A stretch of 39,314 nucleotides of DNA, taken from contig JAFVAL010000036.1 of the NCBI GenBank assembly GCA_017480565.1, positions 1 through 39,314 of the forward strand, written 5' to 3'. A program made the position numbers and the translations under genes. The notes beneath the pieces were generated by a model that had not been told where the DNA came from, searched no databases, and saw only the letters and a program-made list of their open reading frames with translations. Shown here in pieces: positions 1,895-10,848 of this stretch; the stretch's first letter is position 1, and the number at the start of each line of letters is the position of its first letter. The DNA is from Lachnospiraceae bacterium. Its GTDB lineage: Bacteria; Bacillota; Clostridia; Lachnospirales; Lachnospiraceae.

Positions 1895-4297
1895 ATGGAT
1901 ATCAGTATATTCTTGACCAACTGGATTTGGACACCGGATTGGACCGTAGAGGACGACGCCGATGTGAGGATCGTCTGTTTTCGTAAAGAATTCACTGTGG
2001 AGCCGGATAAGATGCCAGAGCGAAAGACAATCCGGATCTCTGCGGACTCCCGTTACAAGCTATATATGAACGGAGCTTTTGTGCAGGAGGGTCCCCAGAA
2101 GGCGTTGAGCCTAAAAGAGTGGTACGTGGACACGGCGGAGCTTGCACCTTATTTACAGCAAGGTGTCAATGTTGCTGCGGTAGAGGTTTTGCGCTATCCT
2201 GCATCGAATTTTTCAAATTCAGATGCGAAAACGAATGACTCCCTTTTACGCACAGAGATCCCGAATCTTTACATTGAGGATCTGACGGAGGATGCAGGGC
2301 AGCTCTCCGGGAAAACTGGCTGGAAGTGCAAGATCAACCGCGAGATTCGTGTATACGGCGAAGATGAAAGACCAGCCCCGATTCATGTCCAGGAGGATGT
2401 GCATGCTACGGATGCATTTGCAGGCTGGAAAAAGGCTGGATACGATGATTCAGATTGGTCTGATGCGACGCCGAGAATGTTTTTTGACATCTCCATGTCG
2501 GACGCGCCTGGTTGCTTGATTCCAAGGACGATCCCCGCCCAACACCATGAGGAAAAGCAGTTTTTAGAAGCGGTTTGTCTCAGAGATCCAGCAATGCAGG
2601 AGATGGAAATCATACCGCTCTTGGAGCAAGCTGAGACGGAGCTTTACGCTTGGAATGAGCTGGTACAGGATAAGCGTGCAGTGACTATCCCTGCGGGTAC
2701 TACGGTGATTGTCGAGTTGAGCGCTGGAGAACTGGTGTGTGGCTATCTGGAATACGCTCTGCGAGGCGGCAGAGGTGCTAATATCGCTACGCTTTGCTCG
2801 GAGTGTTATGCCACTCCCGGCAAGCCTGACCCTTCAGCAGGGTTCATGGGAATGCAGCCAAAGCCTGTCAAGGGCGACCGGACGGATTATCGCAAGGGAA
2901 AGCTGTTTGGCCATGTCTCGCATTATACTGTTGCAGGATACGGTTCGGAAGCGCAGCCGGAGGAGTACGAGCCTTATTGGTTCCGCACATTCCGATATGT
3001 GCAGCTTCGCATTGAGACGGCCGACGAGCCACTGGAGATTCTGCGCTTTTCCTATCGCGCGACCGGCTATCCGCTAGAAGTAAAGACAAATGTTTCCGCT
3101 TCCGATCCTGATTTCGCCGGCATTTGGGACATCAGTGTGCGCACGCTGCGGCGCTGCATGCACGAGACTTACATGGACTGCCCTTTCTATGAACAGCTCC
3201 AGTACGCGATGGACGGACGCAGCGAGATCCTCTACACCTATGCCATCAGCGCTGACGACCGATTATCAAGACAGGCCATGGAGGCCTTTCGCTTGAGCCA
3301 GCGCCCGGACGGCCTTGTCAACTGCGACGCGCCTACCGTGAAGAGCAACGTGATTCCAGGCTTCTCCATCTACTATCTGCTGATGGTACACGACCACATG
3401 ATGTACTTTGGCGATCGGGAGTTGGTGAAGGAGCACCTGCCCGCCATTGATCGCATCCTGGCCTTTTTTGACGGTCACATAAATGAGCTTGGTATGGTAG
3501 GGAAAATTGGTGGACCGATCATGCGTGACAAGTACTGGTCCTTTATTGACTGGTCTACGCTTTGGGGCGCTACAGGCGGTGTTCCCACTGCCTGCCAGAA
3601 AGGCTGCGGATCCATCACGATAGAGAGCCTTTTGTATTTGTATGGTTTACAGCATGCCTCCGAGCTGGCGGCATTTGTTGGCAGGGCAGGTCTTGCCGAG
3701 GAATATCGAGAGAGGGCAGGCTTGCTGCGGACAGCGATTCAGAAGAATTGTCTTGGCTCATATAAAGGCCAGCCCATGATTCAGGATGGCCCTGGCGTGG
3801 ACGAGTACTCGGTGCACACACAAGTCTTTGCGATCCTCACCGGCACGGTCACGCCGGAAGAAGGCAAGGCGATGCTGCAGGCGACCGTGGGGAACGCGGA
3901 ACTTCCTCAGGCTTCGGTAGCCTTTGCGTTCTATCTTTTCCGAGCTTTGGAGAAATGTAGCTGGTATGAGAAGACGGATGAACTCTGGAATCTCTGGCGG
4001 CAGATGCTGCGGGATCAGATGACCACCTGTGTGGAAAATGATACCGATGCCCGTTCGGATTGTCATGCCTGGGCGTCGCTCATGTGCTACGAGCTGCCAG
4101 CAGTCATTTTGGGTGTACGCCCGACATCGCCAGGCTTTGCCACGGTTTCCCTTGCACCTCAGATGGGTGCATTGACCCAGGCATGTGCCGAAGTGATTAC
4201 GCCCAAAGGCATGATACAGGTAGAATGGAAAAAGGAGGCAGATGGAAACTGCCAGCTGCACTACACGCTTCCGGAAGGAATCCGTAAAAGCGAGTAA
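1895..4297 (+). CDS. GH78-family alpha-L-rhamnosidase-like glycosidase (intracellular)
   Basis: 800 residues without a signal peptide, so probably cytoplasmic. Expected role: removal of terminal alpha-L-rhamnose from imported plant oligosaccharides or glycosides. An N-terminal beta-sandwich region (about 1-400, with the ADSRYKLYMNG segment typical of GH78 lectin-like domains) leads into an (alpha/alpha)6 barrel. The barrel begins around residue 426 with YMDCPFYEQLQYAMDGRSE, the variant of the GH78 catalytic block with Tyr-Glu-Gln in place of Arg-Asp-Glu-Arg. A short C-terminal beta domain follows. ATG 1895 has AAGGAGAG about 10 nt upstream. It stands alone with its own promoter. A second GH78 protein at 13892 carries the more canonical block, so the two probably differ in substrate. 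Substrate is not predictable from sequence alone. Confidence 0.82.
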   Translation: MDISIFLTNWIWTPDWTVEDDADVRIVCFRKEFTVEPDKMPERKTIRISADSRYKLYMNGAFVQEGPQKALSLKEWYVDTAELAPYLQQGVNVAAVEVLRYPASNFSNSDAKTNDSLLRTEIPNLYIEDLTEDAGQLSGKTGWKCKINREIRVYGEDERPAPIHVQEDVHATDAFAGWKKAGYDDSDWSDATPRMFFDISMSDAPGCLIPRTIPAQHHEEKQFLEAVCLRDPAMQEMEIIPLLEQAETELYAWNELVQDKRAVTIPAGTTVIVELSAGELVCGYLEYALRGGRGANIATLCSECYATPGKPDPSAGFMGMQPKPVKGDRTDYRKGKLFGHVSHYTVAGYGSEAQPEEYEPYWFRTFRYVQLRIETADEPLEILRFSYRATGYPLEVKTNVSASDPDFAGIWDISVRTLRRCMHETYMDCPFYEQLQYAMDGRSEILYTYAISADDRLSRQAMEAFRLSQRPDGLVNCDAPTVKSNVIPGFSIYYLLMVHDHMMYFGDRELVKEHLPAIDRILAFFDGHINELGMVGKIGGPIMRDKYWSFIDWSTLWGATGGVPTACQKGCGSITIESLLYLYGLQHASELAAFVGRAGLAEEYRERAGLLRTAIQKNCLGSYKGQPMIQDGPGVDEYSVHTQVFAILTGTVTPEEGKAMLQATVGNAELPQASVAFAFYLFRALEKCSWYEKTDELWNLWRQMLRDQMTTCVENDTDARSDCHAWASLMCYELPAVILGVRPTSPGFATVSLAPQMGALTQACAEVITPKGMIQVEWKKEADGNCQLHYTLPEGIRKSE

Positions 4298-4393: not shown

Positions 4394-4675
4394 CAGTTAA
4401 CCGGCACGGAGCGAAGCGAAGTGCGCGGTGGATAAGATAAATGTAAAGCGAAAGAGAGAAGTAGGCATACACGCTTGGCTTCAGAGAGGATCCGGTTGGT
4501 GCGAGGATCTGCAGGTGGGTGCGCGAAAGTGGCTTTCAAACAGATTTGCTGAAGCAAGTAAGCAAGTCCGGGATGTCCCGTTATAGACAAAGAGGTGCAG
4601 CGTAAGCTGCGCGAACTAAGGTGGTACCACGGGGTTTCTCGTCCTTTCGGATGAGGAACCCCTAAGTTTTTTTAA
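4394..4675 (+). promoter_or_regulatory. T-box riboswitch leader of valS
   Basis: The leader contains the T-box core AAGGTGGTACCACGGG at 4617-4632. Upstream are stem I signatures: AGTA near 4468, AGAGAGG followed by GGTTGGTGCGA (the distal loop consensus). A base stem is formed by GAAAG near 4448 and CTTTC at 4534-4538. Within the predicted specifier loop GAAAGTGGC (4525-4533) the only valine codon is GTG at 4529-4531, fitting the downstream gene. In the known mechanism uncharged tRNA pairs its anticodon with the specifier and its CCA end with the T-box bulge. This favours the antiterminator. Specifier placement was made by eye. Confidence 0.9.
4631..4673 (+). terminator. T-box-controlled intrinsic terminator
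   Basis: GGGGTTTCTCGTCC pairs with GATGAGGAACCCC around a short loop (4631-4662), followed by a T run ending at 4673. The 5' arm overlaps the T-box sequence, as required for a mutually exclusive antiterminator. Confidence 0.88.
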
Positions 4676-4688
4676 GGAGAGAGAACAG

Positions 4689-7337
4689 ATGATGGAGAAG
4701 ACCTACAACCCTCAGTCAATTGAGGGGAAGATTTATGACAGATGGCTGGAGAAGAAGTATTTCCATGCGGAAGTGGATCGCTCAAGAAAGCCGTTTACGA
4801 TTGTGATGCCGCCGCCGAACATTACCGGCCAGCTTCACATGGGACATGCGCTTGATAATACGATGCAGGACATCCTGATTCGTTTTAAGAGGATGCAGGG
4901 CTACAATGCGCTGTGGCAGCCGGGCACCGATCACGCCGCGATTGCGACGGAGGTCAAGGTCATCGATTCGTTAAAGGCGAAGGGAATTGACAAAGAAGAT
5001 CTGGGTCGTGACGGATTCCTGGAGAAGTGCTGGGAGTGGAGAGCAGAGTATGGTTCTCGCATCATCAACCAGTTAAAGAAACTGGGTTCTTCCGCAGACT
5101 GGGACCGTGAGCGATTCACGATGGATGAGGGCTGCTCGAATGCGGTTTTGGAAGTGTTCATTAAGTTGTATGAAAAGGGATGGATCTACAAGGGTTCCCG
5201 CATCATCAACTGGTGCCCGCTGTGCCAGACATCGATCTCTGATGCAGAGGTGGAATATGTGGAGCAGGAAGGACATTTCTGGCATATCAATTATCCGATC
5301 GTCGGAGAAGAGGGAAGATATGTGCAGATCGCGACGACGCGTCCGGAGACCTTGCTTGGTGATACTGCGGTTGCTGTCAATCCCGAAGATGAGCGTTACC
5401 AGAATCTGGTCGGCAAGATGCTTGTCCTGCCTTTAACCGGCAGAGAAATCCCGGTCATCGCGGATGACTATGTCGATAAAGAGTTTGGTACCGGCTGCGT
5501 GAAGATCACGCCTGCCCATGACCCCAACGACTTCATGGTTGGCCAGCGGCATCATTTGCCGGAAATCAATATCATGCATGATGATGCGACGATCGATCTG
5601 CCGGGCAGCAAGTACGATGGCATGGATCGTTACGAAGCGCGTGATGCGATCGTGAAGGATCTGGAAGACCTGGGATTGCTTGTGAAGGTCGAGAAGCATG
5701 TGCACAACGTCGGCACGCATGACCGCTGCAAGACCACCGTCGAGCCGCTTGTGAAGCAGCAGTGGTTCGTTAAGATGGATGAAATGATCAAGCCCGCGGT
5801 CGAGGGCGTGAAGGATGGTTCGATTCAGCTGCTGCCAAAGCGCATGGAGAAGACCTACTTTAACTGGACCGACAACATCCGCGACTGGTGCATTTCCAGA
5901 CAGCTCTGGTGGGGGCACCGGATCCCGGCGTATTACTGCCAGGACTGCGGCGAGATGATCGTCTCGAAGGAAGCGCCTTGTAAGTGCCCGAAGTGCGGTG
6001 GCACGAACTTAAAGCAGGATGAGGATACGTTAGATACCTGGTTCTCCTCTGCATTGTGGCCGTTTAGCACGCTTGGCTGGCCGGAGAAGACCGAGGATCT
6101 CGACTACTTCTACCCGAACGACGTGCTCGTGACCGGTTACGACATCATTTTCTTCTGGGTCATCCGTATGATTTTCTCGGGTTATGAGCAGATGGGCAAA
6201 GAGCCATTTAAGACCGTGCTCTTCCACGGCCTGGTGCGCGATTCGCAGGGCCGCAAGATGAGCAAGTCTCTGGGCAACGGTATCGATCCGCTGGAGGTCA
6301 TCGACAAGTACGGCGCGGATGCGCTGCGTCTGACTTTGATTACAGGAAATGCACCCGGCAACGATATGCGTTTCTACTGGGAGAGAGTTGAGGCGAGCCG
6401 CAACTTTGCCAATAAGATCTGGAATGCGTCGAGATTTATTCTGATGAATCTGGAGCAGGCTGGTGAGGATCTGGCAAATGCTGACGTGAAGCTTTCGGAT
6501 CTGCAGCAGGCGGATAAGTGGATTCTTTCCAAGTGCAACGATGTGATCCGTGAAGTTACCGACAACATGGAGAGCTTCGAGCTCGGTATCGCGGTGCAGA
6601 AGGTCTATGACTTTATCTGGGATGAGTTCTGCGACTGGTACATCGAGATGGTGAAGCCTCGCCTTTACAATGAGGCGGACGAGACGAAGGCTGCCGCGCT
6701 TTGGACGTTAAAGCATGTCCTGATCCAGGCGTTAAAGCTCCTGCATCCCTATATGCCGTTCATCACCGAGGAGATCTTCACAACGATCCAGTCCGAGGAA
6801 GAGTCGATCATGATCTCTGATTGGCCGACCTACAATGAGGTATATGCATTTGCAGATGATGAGACAGCTGTAGAATTGGTAAAAGAAGCGGTCAAGGGAA
6901 TCCGTAACGTCAGAGTTACCATGAATGTGGCACCTAGCCATAAGGCTTCTGTGGTGGTTGTCTCTGCAGATGAAAAGGTCAGAAAGATCTTTGAGGACAA
7001 CACGACATTCTTTAAGACCCTGGGCAGCGCAAGCGAAGTGACCGTGCAGGCGGATGCGGCAGGCATCGGTGAGGATGCAGCGCAGACTGTGATCAACGGT
7101 GCGGTGATTTATCTGCCTCTCGCAGACCTGATCGACATCGAAAAAGAGATTGAGCGTCTGGAGAAGGAGCAAAAGCGGCTGACCGGTGAGCTTGCCCGCG
7201 TAAACGGGATGTTAAACAATGAGCGCTTCATGAGTAAAGCGCCAGAGGCGAAGATTGCTGAGGAGAAGGCGAAACTTGCAAAGTATGAAAATATGATGGC
7301 GCAAGTGGTGGAAAGTCTTGCAAAGCTGAAAAAGTAA
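4689..7337 (+). CDS. valS: valyl-tRNA synthetase
   Basis: Charges tRNA-Val with valine in the cytoplasm. The protein is 882 residues, normal for bacterial ValRS. It has the class I signatures: [14 protein letters not shown] with the HIGH-type motif at residues 50-53, and KMSKS at 523-527. Between them lie the editing (CP1) domain and a Cys4 zinc motif (CQDCGEM followed by CPKCGG). An anticodon-binding domain follows, then a C-terminal coiled coil (about 810-880, rich in Glu, Lys and Leu). Two ATG codons are adjacent (4689, 4692); AAGGAGA at 4674-4680 supports either. Expression is governed by the T-box leader, so it should rise on valine starvation. A strong bidirectional terminator follows. 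Confidence 0.97.
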
Positions 7338-7352
7338 AGCATATGGATCCAT

Positions 7353-7391
7353 AAAAGAAATGACAAGGGGTTAACCCTTGTCATTTCTTTT
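7353..7391. terminator. bidirectional terminator between valS and the Cys-tail gene
   Basis: A perfect 17-bp stem (7353-7369 with 7375-7391) around a 5-nt loop, with A runs on one side and T runs on the other, serves both convergent genes. The minus-strand CDS ends inside it: its TAA stop lies in the loop and its last residues KRNDKG are encoded by one arm. Confidence 0.88.
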
Positions 7392-8705
7392 ACTCTCAAT
7401 TTTTACCCTGCCTTCGTGAATGCTCTCTTTAAAGAAGTCCTTCACGGAGCACCCGGCTCTTCCAGACGATGCACAGGCACACGCGCAAGCGCAAGAAGAA
7501 GCACATGCGCAGGAAGAAGCGCAGGCACAGGAGGATGCGCAGGAAGAATGGTGCGAGCCACCGCCGGAGCGATGGGAACCGCCACCGGATCTGTGAGAAG
7601 GCCCGGAACCGCCGCGAGGACGACTGACAGGCACATTTACCACATTGACATGGATGTAGGTGTTCGGGGAATTGCCGTAGCGGTAAGTGCCGTTCTTCGT
7701 GTATTTTTCCGGTTTCTCGATCTGGCTTTCTTCGACAACTTCTTTGCTCTTGATCATGCTTCGTCCGCAGTATTCACAGTTGTCTTTGCCTTCGACGCGG
7801 GCAGCGCCGCAGCTTGGGCAGTTCTCATAATACTCAATCTTGGTGCGGGTGATCTTCTTTTCGGTTGTCTTTGTCTGATCAGAGCCGAAGCCTTCACCCG
7901 TGGTGATCCAGCGGAGGAACTTCATGATGAGGACGATTGGTACGATGAAGACGCCAAGGATGAAGATCATACCGATGATGGTTCCGATCGTTTCTGCAAT
8001 CTGGTCGGAGCGGCTTGGCTGATACGGCTCGTAGTCCCAGTCTTCTTCCCAGTCATCGTTATAGTCATCTGAACCGGCCTGCCGATCCACAGAAAATCCA
8101 AATGTGTCATTCGGATAGACTACGCTCATCGTGTAGCGTTCTCCCGGGGAGAGGCTGGTTTCAAAGACCAGATAGCCATTTTCCTGGAAGCAGTCAGGCT
8201 GCCAGGCTCCCGCTTCTTCTGCGTTCCAGCGGATTACCAGGTTATCGACATCAAAGTCATCAAACCACGCCGGCGTAAGGGTGTAGACCGTCTCGCCTTC
8301 GACCCATTTGTCGATCTGGTACATGTGATCCTGTGTCATGGAAAACTCGAAGCTAACGACTTCATTTTTCCCATAACCGCGGTCCAGATAAATGTGCAGC
8401 TCACTGCCATCATCGTCGATGTAGTCGATCGTGTCGGAGAGAGGCGTGATATTGTCGTGATAACTGTTCGGAACGCCTAAGTTCACCCATTCTAGTTTCT
8501 CGGAGCCACCACCGTCATAGAGCACCAGCCAGTCGATGTGGTAGATCATCTCTAAGGAGGCATCTTCGTTGACATCGACGGTGATTATGAAATTCTGGAT
8601 CTCATCGGTCGCAGACGCACGCACAGGCGTCCCGCTAAAAAGCAGGGTGAGGACGAGAACCGATAGAAGAAGTAAGCTTATTGGCTTAGAAACTGCTTTT
8701 CTCAT
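7371..8705 (-). CDS. secreted/membrane protein with zinc ribbon and Cys-Ala/Ser-Ser repeat tail; candidate radical SAM substrate
   Basis: 444 residues from ATG 8705. Order of parts: signal peptide (hydrophobic 9-23, likely cut after ASA at 30-32); a beta-rich acidic ectodomain (33-230) resembling DUF2207-type domains; one membrane segment (240-262); a cytosolic zinc ribbon with Cys 296, 299, 310 and 313; a Gly/Ser/His/Arg linker with GGGSH repeats (365-388). Last comes a tail with Cys at 389, 393, 395, 399, 401, 405, 407, 409, 411 and 419, spaced by Ala or Ala-Ser-Ser, ending GRAGCSVKDFF and a basic end. The ATG overlaps the stop of the radical SAM gene (TGATG), with AAGGAGGT inside that gene's last codons, so translation is coupled. 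By topology the Cys tail faces the cytosol, where the enzyme would act. That the tail is its substrate is inference; a metal-binding tail is the alternative. Confidence 0.8.
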   Translation of the reverse strand: MRKAVSKPISLLLLSVLVLTLLFSGTPVRASATDEIQNFIITVDVNEDASLEMIYHIDWLVLYDGGGSEKLEWVNLGVPNSYHDNITPLSDTIDYIDDDGSELHIYLDRGYGKNEVVSFEFSMTQDHMYQIDKWVEGETVYTLTPAWFDDFDVDNLVIRWNAEEAGAWQPDCFQENGYLVFETSLSPGERYTMSVVYPNDTFGFSVDRQAGSDDYNDDWEEDWDYEPYQPSRSDQIAETIGTIIGMIFILGVFIVPIVLIMKFLRWITTGEGFGSDQTKTTEKKITRTKIEYYENCPSCGAARVEGKDNCEYCGRSMIKSKEVVEESQIEKPEKYTKNGTYRYGNSPNTYIHVNVVNVPVSRPRGGSGPSHRSGGGSHRSGGGSHHSSCASSCACASSCACASSCACACACASSGRAGCSVKDFFKESIHEGRVKIESKRNDKG

Positions 8706-10102
8706 CAGCAATACCTCCTTAACGGACACTCGCCTGTCATCTCGGACGAGAAGTTTCTGCATTCGGTGCAAGCCGGACTCTCCCAGATGGAGATCCAGTC
8801 GTCGGTTAACATGTTGCCCAGAGGCTCATCGGAGAGCCAGCTCTGACACGGTACCACATTGCCGCCGGGGGTGATGGCCATGTTGGAGAGGCAGGCGCCA
8901 CAGGAGGGCGAAGGGATGTTGAGTTCATCGAAGACCTCCTGCGCGATCCAGCCAGGCGAGGTAAATGCAATCTCCATCCCATTGGCGTGGCAGTAGGCGA
9001 CGGCCTCGCGCAGGATCCCTTCCAATTCTTCGCTGGAAAGCTGGAGTTTTTCAGAGGCTTCTTCCAGCGCATTTCCGGTCGTGATCATCCCGGAGCAGGT
9101 GACGTAGATGACACCTTTTTCGTGTAGGAACTCCAAGGTCTTTACATAATCGCGGTTTAAGCTGCAAAGAGGCGTGTTGATGCTCACAGAAAGCCCCTCT
9201 GCGAGCGCATTTTCAATGCCTCTTACGGTGTTCTCATACTGCGCGGCGCCGACGAGTTGATTGTGTACCGCGGCATCTTCTGAGTAAAATGTGATCTGTA
9301 CGCTGTCAAGCTCGGCTTCGTGCAGCTTCTTGCAGTAGTCCTCGGTCAGCTTGATTCCATTCGTGTTGAGTCTGGAAATGAACCAGCGTGCGTAGGAAAT
9401 GAGTTCAAAAAGATCCTCGCGCATCGTCGGCTCGCCACCGGTGAAGGTGATCTGTGGGATGCCGACCTCGCGGCATTTGTCCAGAATCTTCTTCCAATCG
9501 TCGGTCGAAAGCTCTTCTTCGTCAGAATGCACCTGGCCTGCCGCGTAGCAGTGCACACACTTCTGGTTGCAGTGCCATTTGCCCTGCCGCGTCATCGCGC
9601 TGACCAACACGTCCATGCGGTGCGGCGCGTTCATGTAGTCCGCATACTCGCCAAGGCTCATGTAGTGAATCTCCGTCGTGACCTCCTCGCGGTACGCGAT
9701 CTGGCGCATCGTGGTATAGATCTCCTCGATGTTCTTCTGGATGCGCTTTTTCGAAAGCGCAGGGATGATCTGCTTGACATTCTGCGCAGTCTGTTCAAGG
9801 ATGTGCGCGATGTCCTTCTCGCTGATTTCCTTGCCGTCGTAGTGGTTCGTCTCACGGATCATTTCCGCTAAAATCACCGCAAAGACAAAGTTCACGGGGA
9901 TGATATCCGTACCATTGATGATAGCTATGCTCGGACTGAATGCATTTTCCTGCTTCTTCGGTGGAATTAGGTGGATGCGGATCGCGCCCGGGCCGTCCGG
10001 ATTAAGCGTCGTGTGCAGGACTTCGTCAAAAGTTGTGTCCATGTAGGATGTGATCCCGCGCACGGTTTTGGTGTTTCGAAATAGTTTTGGTATCGTGATC
10101 AT
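8705..10102 (-). CDS. radical SAM/SPASM protein, probable peptide-modifying maturase
   Basis: 465 residues. An N-terminal region of about 170 residues without clear motif (possibly substrate recognition) precedes the radical SAM core. CNQKCVHC (Cys 178, 182, 185) is the CxxxCxxC site for the S-adenosylmethionine-binding [4Fe-4S] cluster, and TFTGGEPTMRED is the GGEP motif. The C-terminal region has seven cysteines. The first part fits the SPASM pattern (CX9GX4C from CLSNMAITPG onward, then CTEC); the later spacings are looser. SPASM proteins often carry auxiliary clusters and modify ribosomal peptides. ATG 10102 overlaps the hydrolase stop (ATGA), with GGGAGG just upstream. The downstream gene encodes a Cys-rich tail protein, so thioether or related crosslinking of that tail is the working hypothesis. 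Heme- or cofactor-type functions cannot be excluded. Confidence 0.88.
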   Translation of the reverse strand: MITIPKLFRNTKTVRGITSYMDTTFDEVLHTTLNPDGPGAIRIHLIPPKKQENAFSPSIAIINGTDIIPVNFVFAVILAEMIRETNHYDGKEISEKDIAHILEQTAQNVKQIIPALSKKRIQKNIEEIYTTMRQIAYREEVTTEIHYMSLGEYADYMNAPHRMDVLVSAMTRQGKWHCNQKCVHCYAAGQVHSDEEELSTDDWKKILDKCREVGIPQITFTGGEPTMREDLFELISYARWFISRLNTNGIKLTEDYCKKLHEAELDSVQITFYSEDAAVHNQLVGAAQYENTVRGIENALAEGLSVSINTPLCSLNRDYVKTLEFLHEKGVIYVTCSGMITTGNALEEASEKLQLSSEELEGILREAVAYCHANGMEIAFTSPGWIAQEVFDELNIPSPSCGACLSNMAITPGGNVVPCQSWLSDEPLGNMLTDDWISIWESPACTECRNFSSEMTGECPLRRYC

Positions 10103-10848
10103 GGGTTTCCTCCCTTGATAAGATTCGTGATTGCGTCAGTAGTTTGATTTACTTGTTCTTCCGGGGAAATGCCTGGCGTTCCGTCACCCTTTTGCGGCCC
10201 GTAGGAGCCAAAGTAGGCGTGACAGCCACCCACGATGGTAACTTCTGTGGCAGTTGCGGGAAGATTTGCCTTTGCTTCTTCGTACTTCTTCCAGCCTAGC
10301 ACCTGGTCTTCGGAACCGACAACAGATAGAAATCCAAGATCGGAATCACGGAAATCCACTGTGGAATACGAAGCCAGGAAAATGATGCCATCAAATGCTT
10401 CCTCATGCTTTGCCAGGTACGAGGCCGCCATCACACCGCCGAGAGAATGTCCGGCGAGGTACCAGTCAGAGACCTCCGGGAAGAGCTCCCGCACGCCTTC
10501 CGCGGCATTCATGTCAAATACCGCCAGCCGGAAAGGCACTTCTAAGAGGACGCAGAGGATGTCTTCTTCGGCACACGAAGCCATCAAAGGCGCATAGGCT
10601 TCCGCTTCGACCTTACCTCCGGGATAGAAAACCAGGCCTGCCTCCGGATGCTCCGGTGCAAAGACATAACCAGTTCCATCAATGTGCTCGATGCTCACGC
10701 CTTCCGGCGGACTTGCAAAAACCGACAAAGCCGCCTCATCCGCATGATAATAGGTTTCCAGATAAAGGAGGCTCGCGGTAAGCACAATAGCCAGAAGAGC
10801 GAGAATAACGATAAGTGTCCTTTTTTTACGTACAGCCTGATTTTTCAT
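10099..10848 (-). CDS. membrane-anchored alpha/beta hydrolase
   Basis: 249 residues. One N-terminal membrane segment (11-30) after a basic start suggests an enzyme anchored with its catalytic domain outside the membrane. The nucleophile elbow is GHSLGG with Ser 135. Likely Asp is 181 (GSEDQV) and His is 210 (GGCHAYFGSYG). Length and motifs fit the compact alpha/beta hydrolase_5-type families, whose substrates are mostly unknown. It is the first gene of a three-gene operon with 4-nt and 1-nt overlaps to its followers. This implies a joint role with the radical SAM protein and the Cys-tail protein, perhaps release or trimming of an envelope product. That is inference. The stop TGA is shared with the next ATG. 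Confidence 0.85.
   Translation of the reverse strand: MKNQAVRKKRTLIVILALLAIVLTASLLYLETYYHADEAALSVFASPPEGVSIEHIDGTGYVFAPEHPEAGLVFYPGGKVEAEAYAPLMASCAEEDILCVLLEVPFRLAVFDMNAAEGVRELFPEVSDWYLAGHSLGGVMAASYLAKHEEAFDGIIFLASYSTVDFRDSDLGFLSVVGSEDQVLGWKKYEEAKANLPATATEVTIVGGCHAYFGSYGPQKGDGTPGISPEEQVNQTTDAITNLIKGGNP

Follow-up and report, generated by a model that had tools for sequence, protein, structure and literature searches.

Near-constant pairing of a radical SAM/SPASM enzyme with a Cys-Ala-tailed membrane protein suggests a full-size substrate for RiPP-like maturation

What does a radical S-adenosylmethionine (SAM) enzyme act on when its neighbouring gene encodes a 444-residue membrane protein? The question is raised by a 39,314-nucleotide (nt) contig of a Lachnospiraceae bacterium (JAFVAL010000036.1, assembly GCA_017480565.1), the whole of which was analysed and is called the window hereafter. 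Three minus-strand genes of the window encode an alpha/beta hydrolase, a radical SAM/SPASM protein and a membrane protein with a C-terminal Cys-Ala tail (Table 1). An earlier note on this DNA had described them as overlapping, and the overlaps were seen: the hydrolase and radical SAM genes share 4 nt (ATGA) and the radical SAM and tail-protein genes 1 nt (TGATG), with an AAGGAGG ribosome-binding site 8 nt 5' of the tail-protein ATG, within the 3' end of the radical SAM gene. The membrane protein and the radical SAM/SPASM protein are a two-gene unit, and the tail is the most likely substrate of the enzyme.

The linkage of the two genes was followed in several samples of genomes (L numbers denote fetched loci and G numbers genomes, G000 being the window's own genome). 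In a family-level draw of 200 genomes, the enzyme was found in 16 genomes at a threshold of E up to 1e-40, with the tail protein directly adjacent in 16/16. The membrane protein was matched in 18 genomes: the same 16, G073, which was matched by its zinc-ribbon stretch only and the contig of which was not fetched, and G082. The ectodomain protein of G082 (L058, 8502-9347, plus strand; a 282-residue frame, 91 bits) has no tail, and no radical SAM relative was found in that genome at E up to 1e-40; G082, which as judged by sequence keeps ectodomain and span with neither Cys tail nor enzyme, is a natural control. In an order-level draw of 392 genomes, which shares four positives with the family draw, both proteins were found in the same 10 genomes and at adjacent coordinates (10/10). 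The partner gene also lay beside the radical SAM gene in 79 of the best 80 of at least 505 relatives (72 complete tail genes and 7 partner genes running off the contig), and in the remaining locus, L116, the contig ends 324 nt past the radical SAM gene. The nearest named relatives among these best 80 are Lachnospiraceae and other Clostridia-type metagenome-assembled genomes (MAGs), many of them from the rumen. A phylum-level draw of 398 genomes (threshold E up to 1e-50) gave the enzyme in 15, the window's genome and 14 from four other families. In 14/14 of these distant loci a neighbouring gene matched the tail-protein profile (E 7.7e-43 to 2.2e-4, L217-L220 giving the weakest matches). The Cys-Ala tail is complete in 12/14; that of L216 can be seen in part, and that of L212 is cut short. 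These samples overlap (L044/L078, L045/L132 and L113/L169 are the same contigs), and the 109 loci yield 106 distinct radical SAM sequences. The suggestion of the earlier note that enzyme and Cys tail belong together is thus well borne out.

The same note had held that its substrate idea would fail if such tails occurred mostly away from radical SAM genes. A class-level search of 391 genomes by the tail alone gave 13 matches in 12 genomes, and the enzyme gene was adjacent in 8/12 (G000, G327, G672, G780, G834, G845, G853 and G893). The contig of G893 holds only the last 131 residues of the enzyme, and in G853 (L191, 9527-11266) the tail gene is split, with frames that by eye look transposase-like between the pieces, and the radical SAM frame is intact. 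In G737, G774 and G910 the tail gene lies at a contig end, so that adjacency cannot be judged, and the G767 match (E 3.2e-4) was rejected as a chance match, since it contains a stop and has no relatives nearby. Among the 391 class genomes no clear tail without the enzyme was found, the three contig-end cases being left out of this verdict.

Linkage was retained when the genes were rearranged or duplicated. In L186 the radical SAM gene is preceded by two tail genes in tandem, and L217-L220 have the tail gene as the first of the pair. Two diverged tail proteins accompany a single radical SAM protein in L115 (35-1300, minus strand, and 2907-4154, plus strand) and in L186 (7766-8707 and 8758-9705). 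These paralogues keep the tail while the preceding part falls to 57% (L115) and 45% (L186) identity, with the exception of one L186 paralogue that has Tyr at a single repeat Cys.

The tail protein begins with MRKAVSKPISLLLLSV. Sequence and AlphaFold prediction agree with the earlier description of a signal, an ectodomain, one membrane span and a tail of ten Cys at residues 389-419: the model has a helix at 9-23, a beta ectodomain at 34-198 (predicted local distance difference test score, pLDDT, mostly above 90), a single helix at 232-268 and a zinc-ribbon region at about 281-342, and residues 363-421 are modelled with low confidence. The ectodomain is predicted to lie outside and the tail in the cytosol, on the enzyme's side of the membrane, as had been proposed. 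Complete partner proteins across members are membrane proteins of more than 300 residues. The zinc ribbon of the earlier description is present in the window protein and is missing, as read from the sequences, from the tail-bearing homologues L053-L057, L164-L167, L185 and L186; as an essential part it was ruled out, because several homologues without it keep the tail.

No Pfam family matched the window tail protein, and its NCBIfam rows were only far under cut-off. DUF2207 proteins (PF09972) resemble it in signal, ectodomain, span and low-complexity tail; however, PF09972 gave no match in the 10 tail proteins scanned, the window protein or the window genome, and three true DUF2207 proteins, encoded in two of the same genomes, have Gly-rich ends without Cys. 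The luminal domain of Ribophorin I/Ost1 and the N-terminal domain of M1 aminopeptidases share the fold at about 10% identity, the window protein has no catalytic domain, and this shared fold says nothing on function.

Conservation of the tail was assessed by codon comparison among 45 distinct near relatives, for which genes were picked by the ectodomain rather than by the tail and duplicates were removed; earlier counts had picked genes by the tail motif, and the ectodomain-picked count repeated them. Of 53 near loci, 48 have a full-length tail-protein gene (46 distinct) and 5 run off the contig end, and none lacks the tail. Of the 1035 codons compared in the 23-residue core, 383 were identical, 632 differed synonymously and 20 nonsynonymously (2% nonsynonymous), whereas the ectodomain showed 2531 synonymous and 2299 nonsynonymous differences of 7657 codons (30%); DNA divergence of the two is similar despite this difference in amino-acid change. 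The zinc ribbon stood at 16% nonsynonymous in the same relatives and the radical SAM gene at 23% in 50 loci. In an alignment of 16 divergent homologues, residues 397-424 contain 15 of the 30 invariant columns. Core codons are mixed (GCC 282, GCA 118, GCG 73, GCT 58; TGT 276, TGC 255), and in 48 cores 46 distinct DNA versions encode just 5 protein versions. A DNA microsatellite origin of the repeat was ruled out by these two observations, and on its codons the Cys-Ala tail is no product of chance or microsatellite expansion.

A wider set of 113 tails was gathered by the pattern (CA)3+ followed by G within three residues or fewer, which is therefore present by construction; the Cys count of the stretch ranges from 5 to 14. 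Tail ends in the window's group read mostly GRAGC[ST]xKDF[FY]. Elsewhere they read GRVGCSERGY (L190/L191) or GG[RG]GAGC[AT][QR]KF (one distant group), and L217-L220 have a bare SSGGCT or GGGGCT C-terminus. The Cys-Ala core and a later Cys are common.

The enzyme carries the radical SAM motif CNQKCVHC at residues 178-185 and a TGGEP motif, and both PF04055 (E 7.7e-21) and PF13186 (SPASM) were over cut-off, the latter being matched in 45/45 members at E up to 1. C178, C182, C185, C313, C336, C401, C404, C419, C445 and C459 are invariant in 45/45 near relatives. From its sequence, the auxiliary domain in the window's group looks reduced and twitch-type, because C448 is Cys in just 1/45 near relatives; the distant L207 and L217 retain the full Cx2Cx5Cx3C. 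In a more divergent alignment (A1), C404 is Ala in 2/15 rows and C445 is not invariant. Three individual frames are of note: the radical SAM N-terminal domain of L057 (9518-11323, minus strand) holds about seven near-identical VSGGRKEAREG-type repeats, the frame of L124 (7962-9350, a MAG contig) has one in-frame stop that may reflect either a sequencing error or decay of the gene, and that of L133 has a variant residue within the search motif and is intact.

Neither Pfam nor NCBIfam has a family for the pair. For the window enzyme, 25 listed NCBIfam families were all far below cut-off, the best being NirJ2 with 111 of 500 bits; equivalogs below cut-off include, besides NirJ2, AhbD, MoaA, PqqE, the mycofactocin maturase and SkfB. 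Literature searches of titles and the starts of abstracts gave nothing on the pair; subscription papers and preprints were outside their scope, and a prior description is possible.

The AlphaFold model of the enzyme (mean pLDDT 82.4, predicted template modelling score 0.84, low confidence near the radical SAM cluster loop) resembles maturases of ribosomally synthesised and post-translationally modified peptides (RiPPs), and so lends support to the kinship with RiPP crosslinkers suggested earlier. In a VIA-align list that covers only Foldseek matches of this model, SuiB, anSME and SkfB lie within about one Z unit, and viperins, CteB and MoaA score slightly lower. SuiB and SkfB are set apart by aligned length. 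These RiPP maturases with an N-terminal RiPP recognition element (RRE) align over the N-terminal domain, and the model suggests that this domain (about 28-136; predicted strands, then three helices) is RRE-like because the two alignments begin at model residues 31 and 41; they share 16% and 21% identity with the window enzyme, respectively. By sequence the domain had no match in Pfam, and its profile found nothing in the PDB at E up to 1. In PMC8326336, the RRE is described as generally N-terminal and interacting with the leader peptide, SkfB as carrying a twitch domain and taking Ala as acceptor with alpha-hydrogen abstraction, and sactisynthases as using Cys donors. The N-terminal profile scored 172 bits in the window, 77-81 in L190/L191, 28-54 in L207-L216 and below 5 in L217-L220, while the core profile fell from 593 to 191 bits over the same groups. 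The domain thus appears to diverge faster, together with the tail end, as a recognition part would, although this is a correlation across few groups to which general divergence contributes.

Taken together, a two-gene maturation system with the tail as the most likely substrate of the radical SAM enzyme is judged likely, because the linkage survives gene reordering and duplication, because one genome without the tail is also without the enzyme, because conservation is extreme exactly at the Cys-Ala core, and because the enzyme model matches peptide crosslinkers including their N-terminal domain. The tail protein would span the membrane, the beta ectodomain facing outwards and the C-terminal tail reaching into the cytosol, where the enzyme would bind the tail, probably via the RRE-like domain and probably also through the stretch that follows the last tail Cys and varies by clade. 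A 5'-deoxyadenosyl radical would then be used to modify the repeated Cys-Ala units. The likeliest product would be intramolecular thioethers from Cys sulfur to a neighbouring Ala carbon, with the alpha carbon favoured; thioether formation at Ala is proposed tentatively and by analogy, since Cys is the donor for sactisynthases and Ala an acceptor for SkfB, and epimerisation or another change of the tail is a possible outcome instead. Through such crosslinks the disordered tail would become a rigid knot that stays permanently attached to the protein, and the tail is probably not cut off, because no protease or exporter is common beside the pair.

The pair works like a RiPP maturation system, yet no short precursor, protease or exporter was found with it: across 27 loci, in which open reading frames of at least 90 aa were compared, no short peptide, protease or exporter/transporter is shared beside the pair. 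A classical RiPP cluster was rejected on this comparison of frames of at least 90 aa and on the size of the partner, since RiPP maturases have a short precursor peptide and the window enzyme has the 444-residue membrane protein. QhpD, the radical SAM enzyme that matures the gamma subunit of quinohemoprotein amine dehydrogenase, offers a parallel in that it modifies a protein that stays full size; its substrate is a soluble enzyme subunit, unlike the membrane tail protein. The dehydrogenase has a protein-derived cofactor, as stated in PMC7876137. CteB is a related case for which only model residues 157-465 were aligned. With the sulfatase maturase anSME the alignment spanned only 158-465, without the N-terminal domain, and the C/S-x-P/A-x-R type of motif that anSME recognises is absent from the Cys-Ala tail.

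Among other explanations, it is unlikely that the tail is a docking handle that brings the enzyme to the membrane, the real substrate being a lipid, a small molecule or another protein. Docking would give the same-looking linkage and tail conservation, and anSME and viperin-like folds are also close matches to the enzyme model; however, no third gene is widely common to the pair in the 27 loci, and the Cys-Ala core is kept across groups that diverge strongly both in the sequence following the last Cys and in the N-terminal domain of the enzyme, which is what one would expect were chemistry to take place at the core and recognition elsewhere. A cytosolic metal-binding or Fe-S/redox segment, the metal site of which the enzyme loads, senses or uses, is quite improbable. 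Metallothioneins carry CxC repeats, every second residue of the tail is Cys (5-14 of them in the counted stretch) and the zinc ribbon adjoins the tail in many members, but thiol spacing would require neither the strict Ala of the invariant CACACACA core nor the invariant G-R-A-G-C that comes next in the window's group, and the enzyme model aligns with SuiB and SkfB past the radical SAM core; we also know of no metal-loader role for radical SAM enzymes. It is very improbable that all three genes form one system, with the extracytoplasmic hydrolase processing or using the modified protein, and the hydrolase that the earlier note had included was ruled out as a component, since, despite the 4-nt overlap in this genome, it had no phmmer match at E up to 1e-3 in 95 other radical SAM loci (two being repeat contigs), 87 of the 94 measured having at least 900 nt upstream of the radical SAM gene.

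Most known cases of radical SAM chemistry on peptides concern short, secreted or cofactor-forming ones. Maturation of the tail, if true, would extend radical SAM crosslinking to a full-size membrane protein tail and into cell-envelope biology, give a substrate to an unassigned radical SAM group and offer a first handle on the TPM and LemA neighbour proteins described below. A near-unchanging Cys-Ala tail encoded beside one radical enzyme in nearly all relatives checked suggests that bacteria stitch the tail of a full-size membrane protein as they do small peptide antibiotics. With about even confidence, the pair represents a widespread class of envelope proteins in which one dedicated radical SAM enzyme makes a cytosolic (Cys-Ala)n a permanent RiPP-like multi-thioether knot; the biological purpose that we infer for the modified tail would be a structural or a signalling role, exercised in one group jointly with LemA/TPM proteins.

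When the genes of the 27 loci were clustered, the radical SAM gene was found in 27 and the tail gene in 25, the missing L190/L191 tail genes being recovered by a hidden Markov model; the next two gene clusters (16 and 7 of 27 loci) look antisense to the radical SAM gene. Genes of TPM/LemA envelope proteins follow the pair in a distant group. TPM-like frames come after, or are fused to, the tail gene in 8/14 distant loci, and no other locus searched shows this; TPM was over the Pfam cut-off in L209 and L211 and not in L208, and LemA in 3/3 tested. In this group the modified protein would probably work with the LemA/TPM proteins. Tail protein and TPM-like domain share one frame in L209 (5366-7498), L210 (5445-7388) and L214 (876-2735), and the fused frame of L209 has a second hydrophobic stretch between the two. 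A membrane protein of about 300 aa, with no family assigned, lies directly 5' of the radical SAM gene in L053, L057, L164, L165 and L166.

Table 1. Features of the locus, in window coordinates.
Feature	Position	Strand	Description
Tail protein, 444 residues	7371-8705	-	N-terminal signal/anchor, beta ectodomain, one span, optional zinc ribbon, Gly/Ser/His linker, Cys-Ala tail
Radical SAM/SPASM protein, 465 residues	8705-10102	-	Predicted RRE-like N-terminal domain, radical SAM motif, twitch/SPASM C-terminus
Alpha/beta hydrolase, Abhydrolase_5	10099-10848	-	PF12695, E 4.4e-48; codirectional, outside the conserved unit
Cys-Ala tail, residues 389-425 = CASSCACASSCACASSCACACACASSGRAGCSVKDFF	7431-7541	-	Within the tail-protein gene
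Small inverted repeat	7366-7379	+	Lies where the tail gene and the valS-like gene converge; resembles a terminator on the plus strand

The inverted repeat is no better than shuffled expectation, with 5 such sites in the region against 3.9 expected. An ordinary T-box leader (RF00230, 120.5 bits) lies at 4437-4649 on the plus strand, just 5' of the 882-aa gene at 4689-7337, which from its sequence we take to be valyl-tRNA-synthetase-like.

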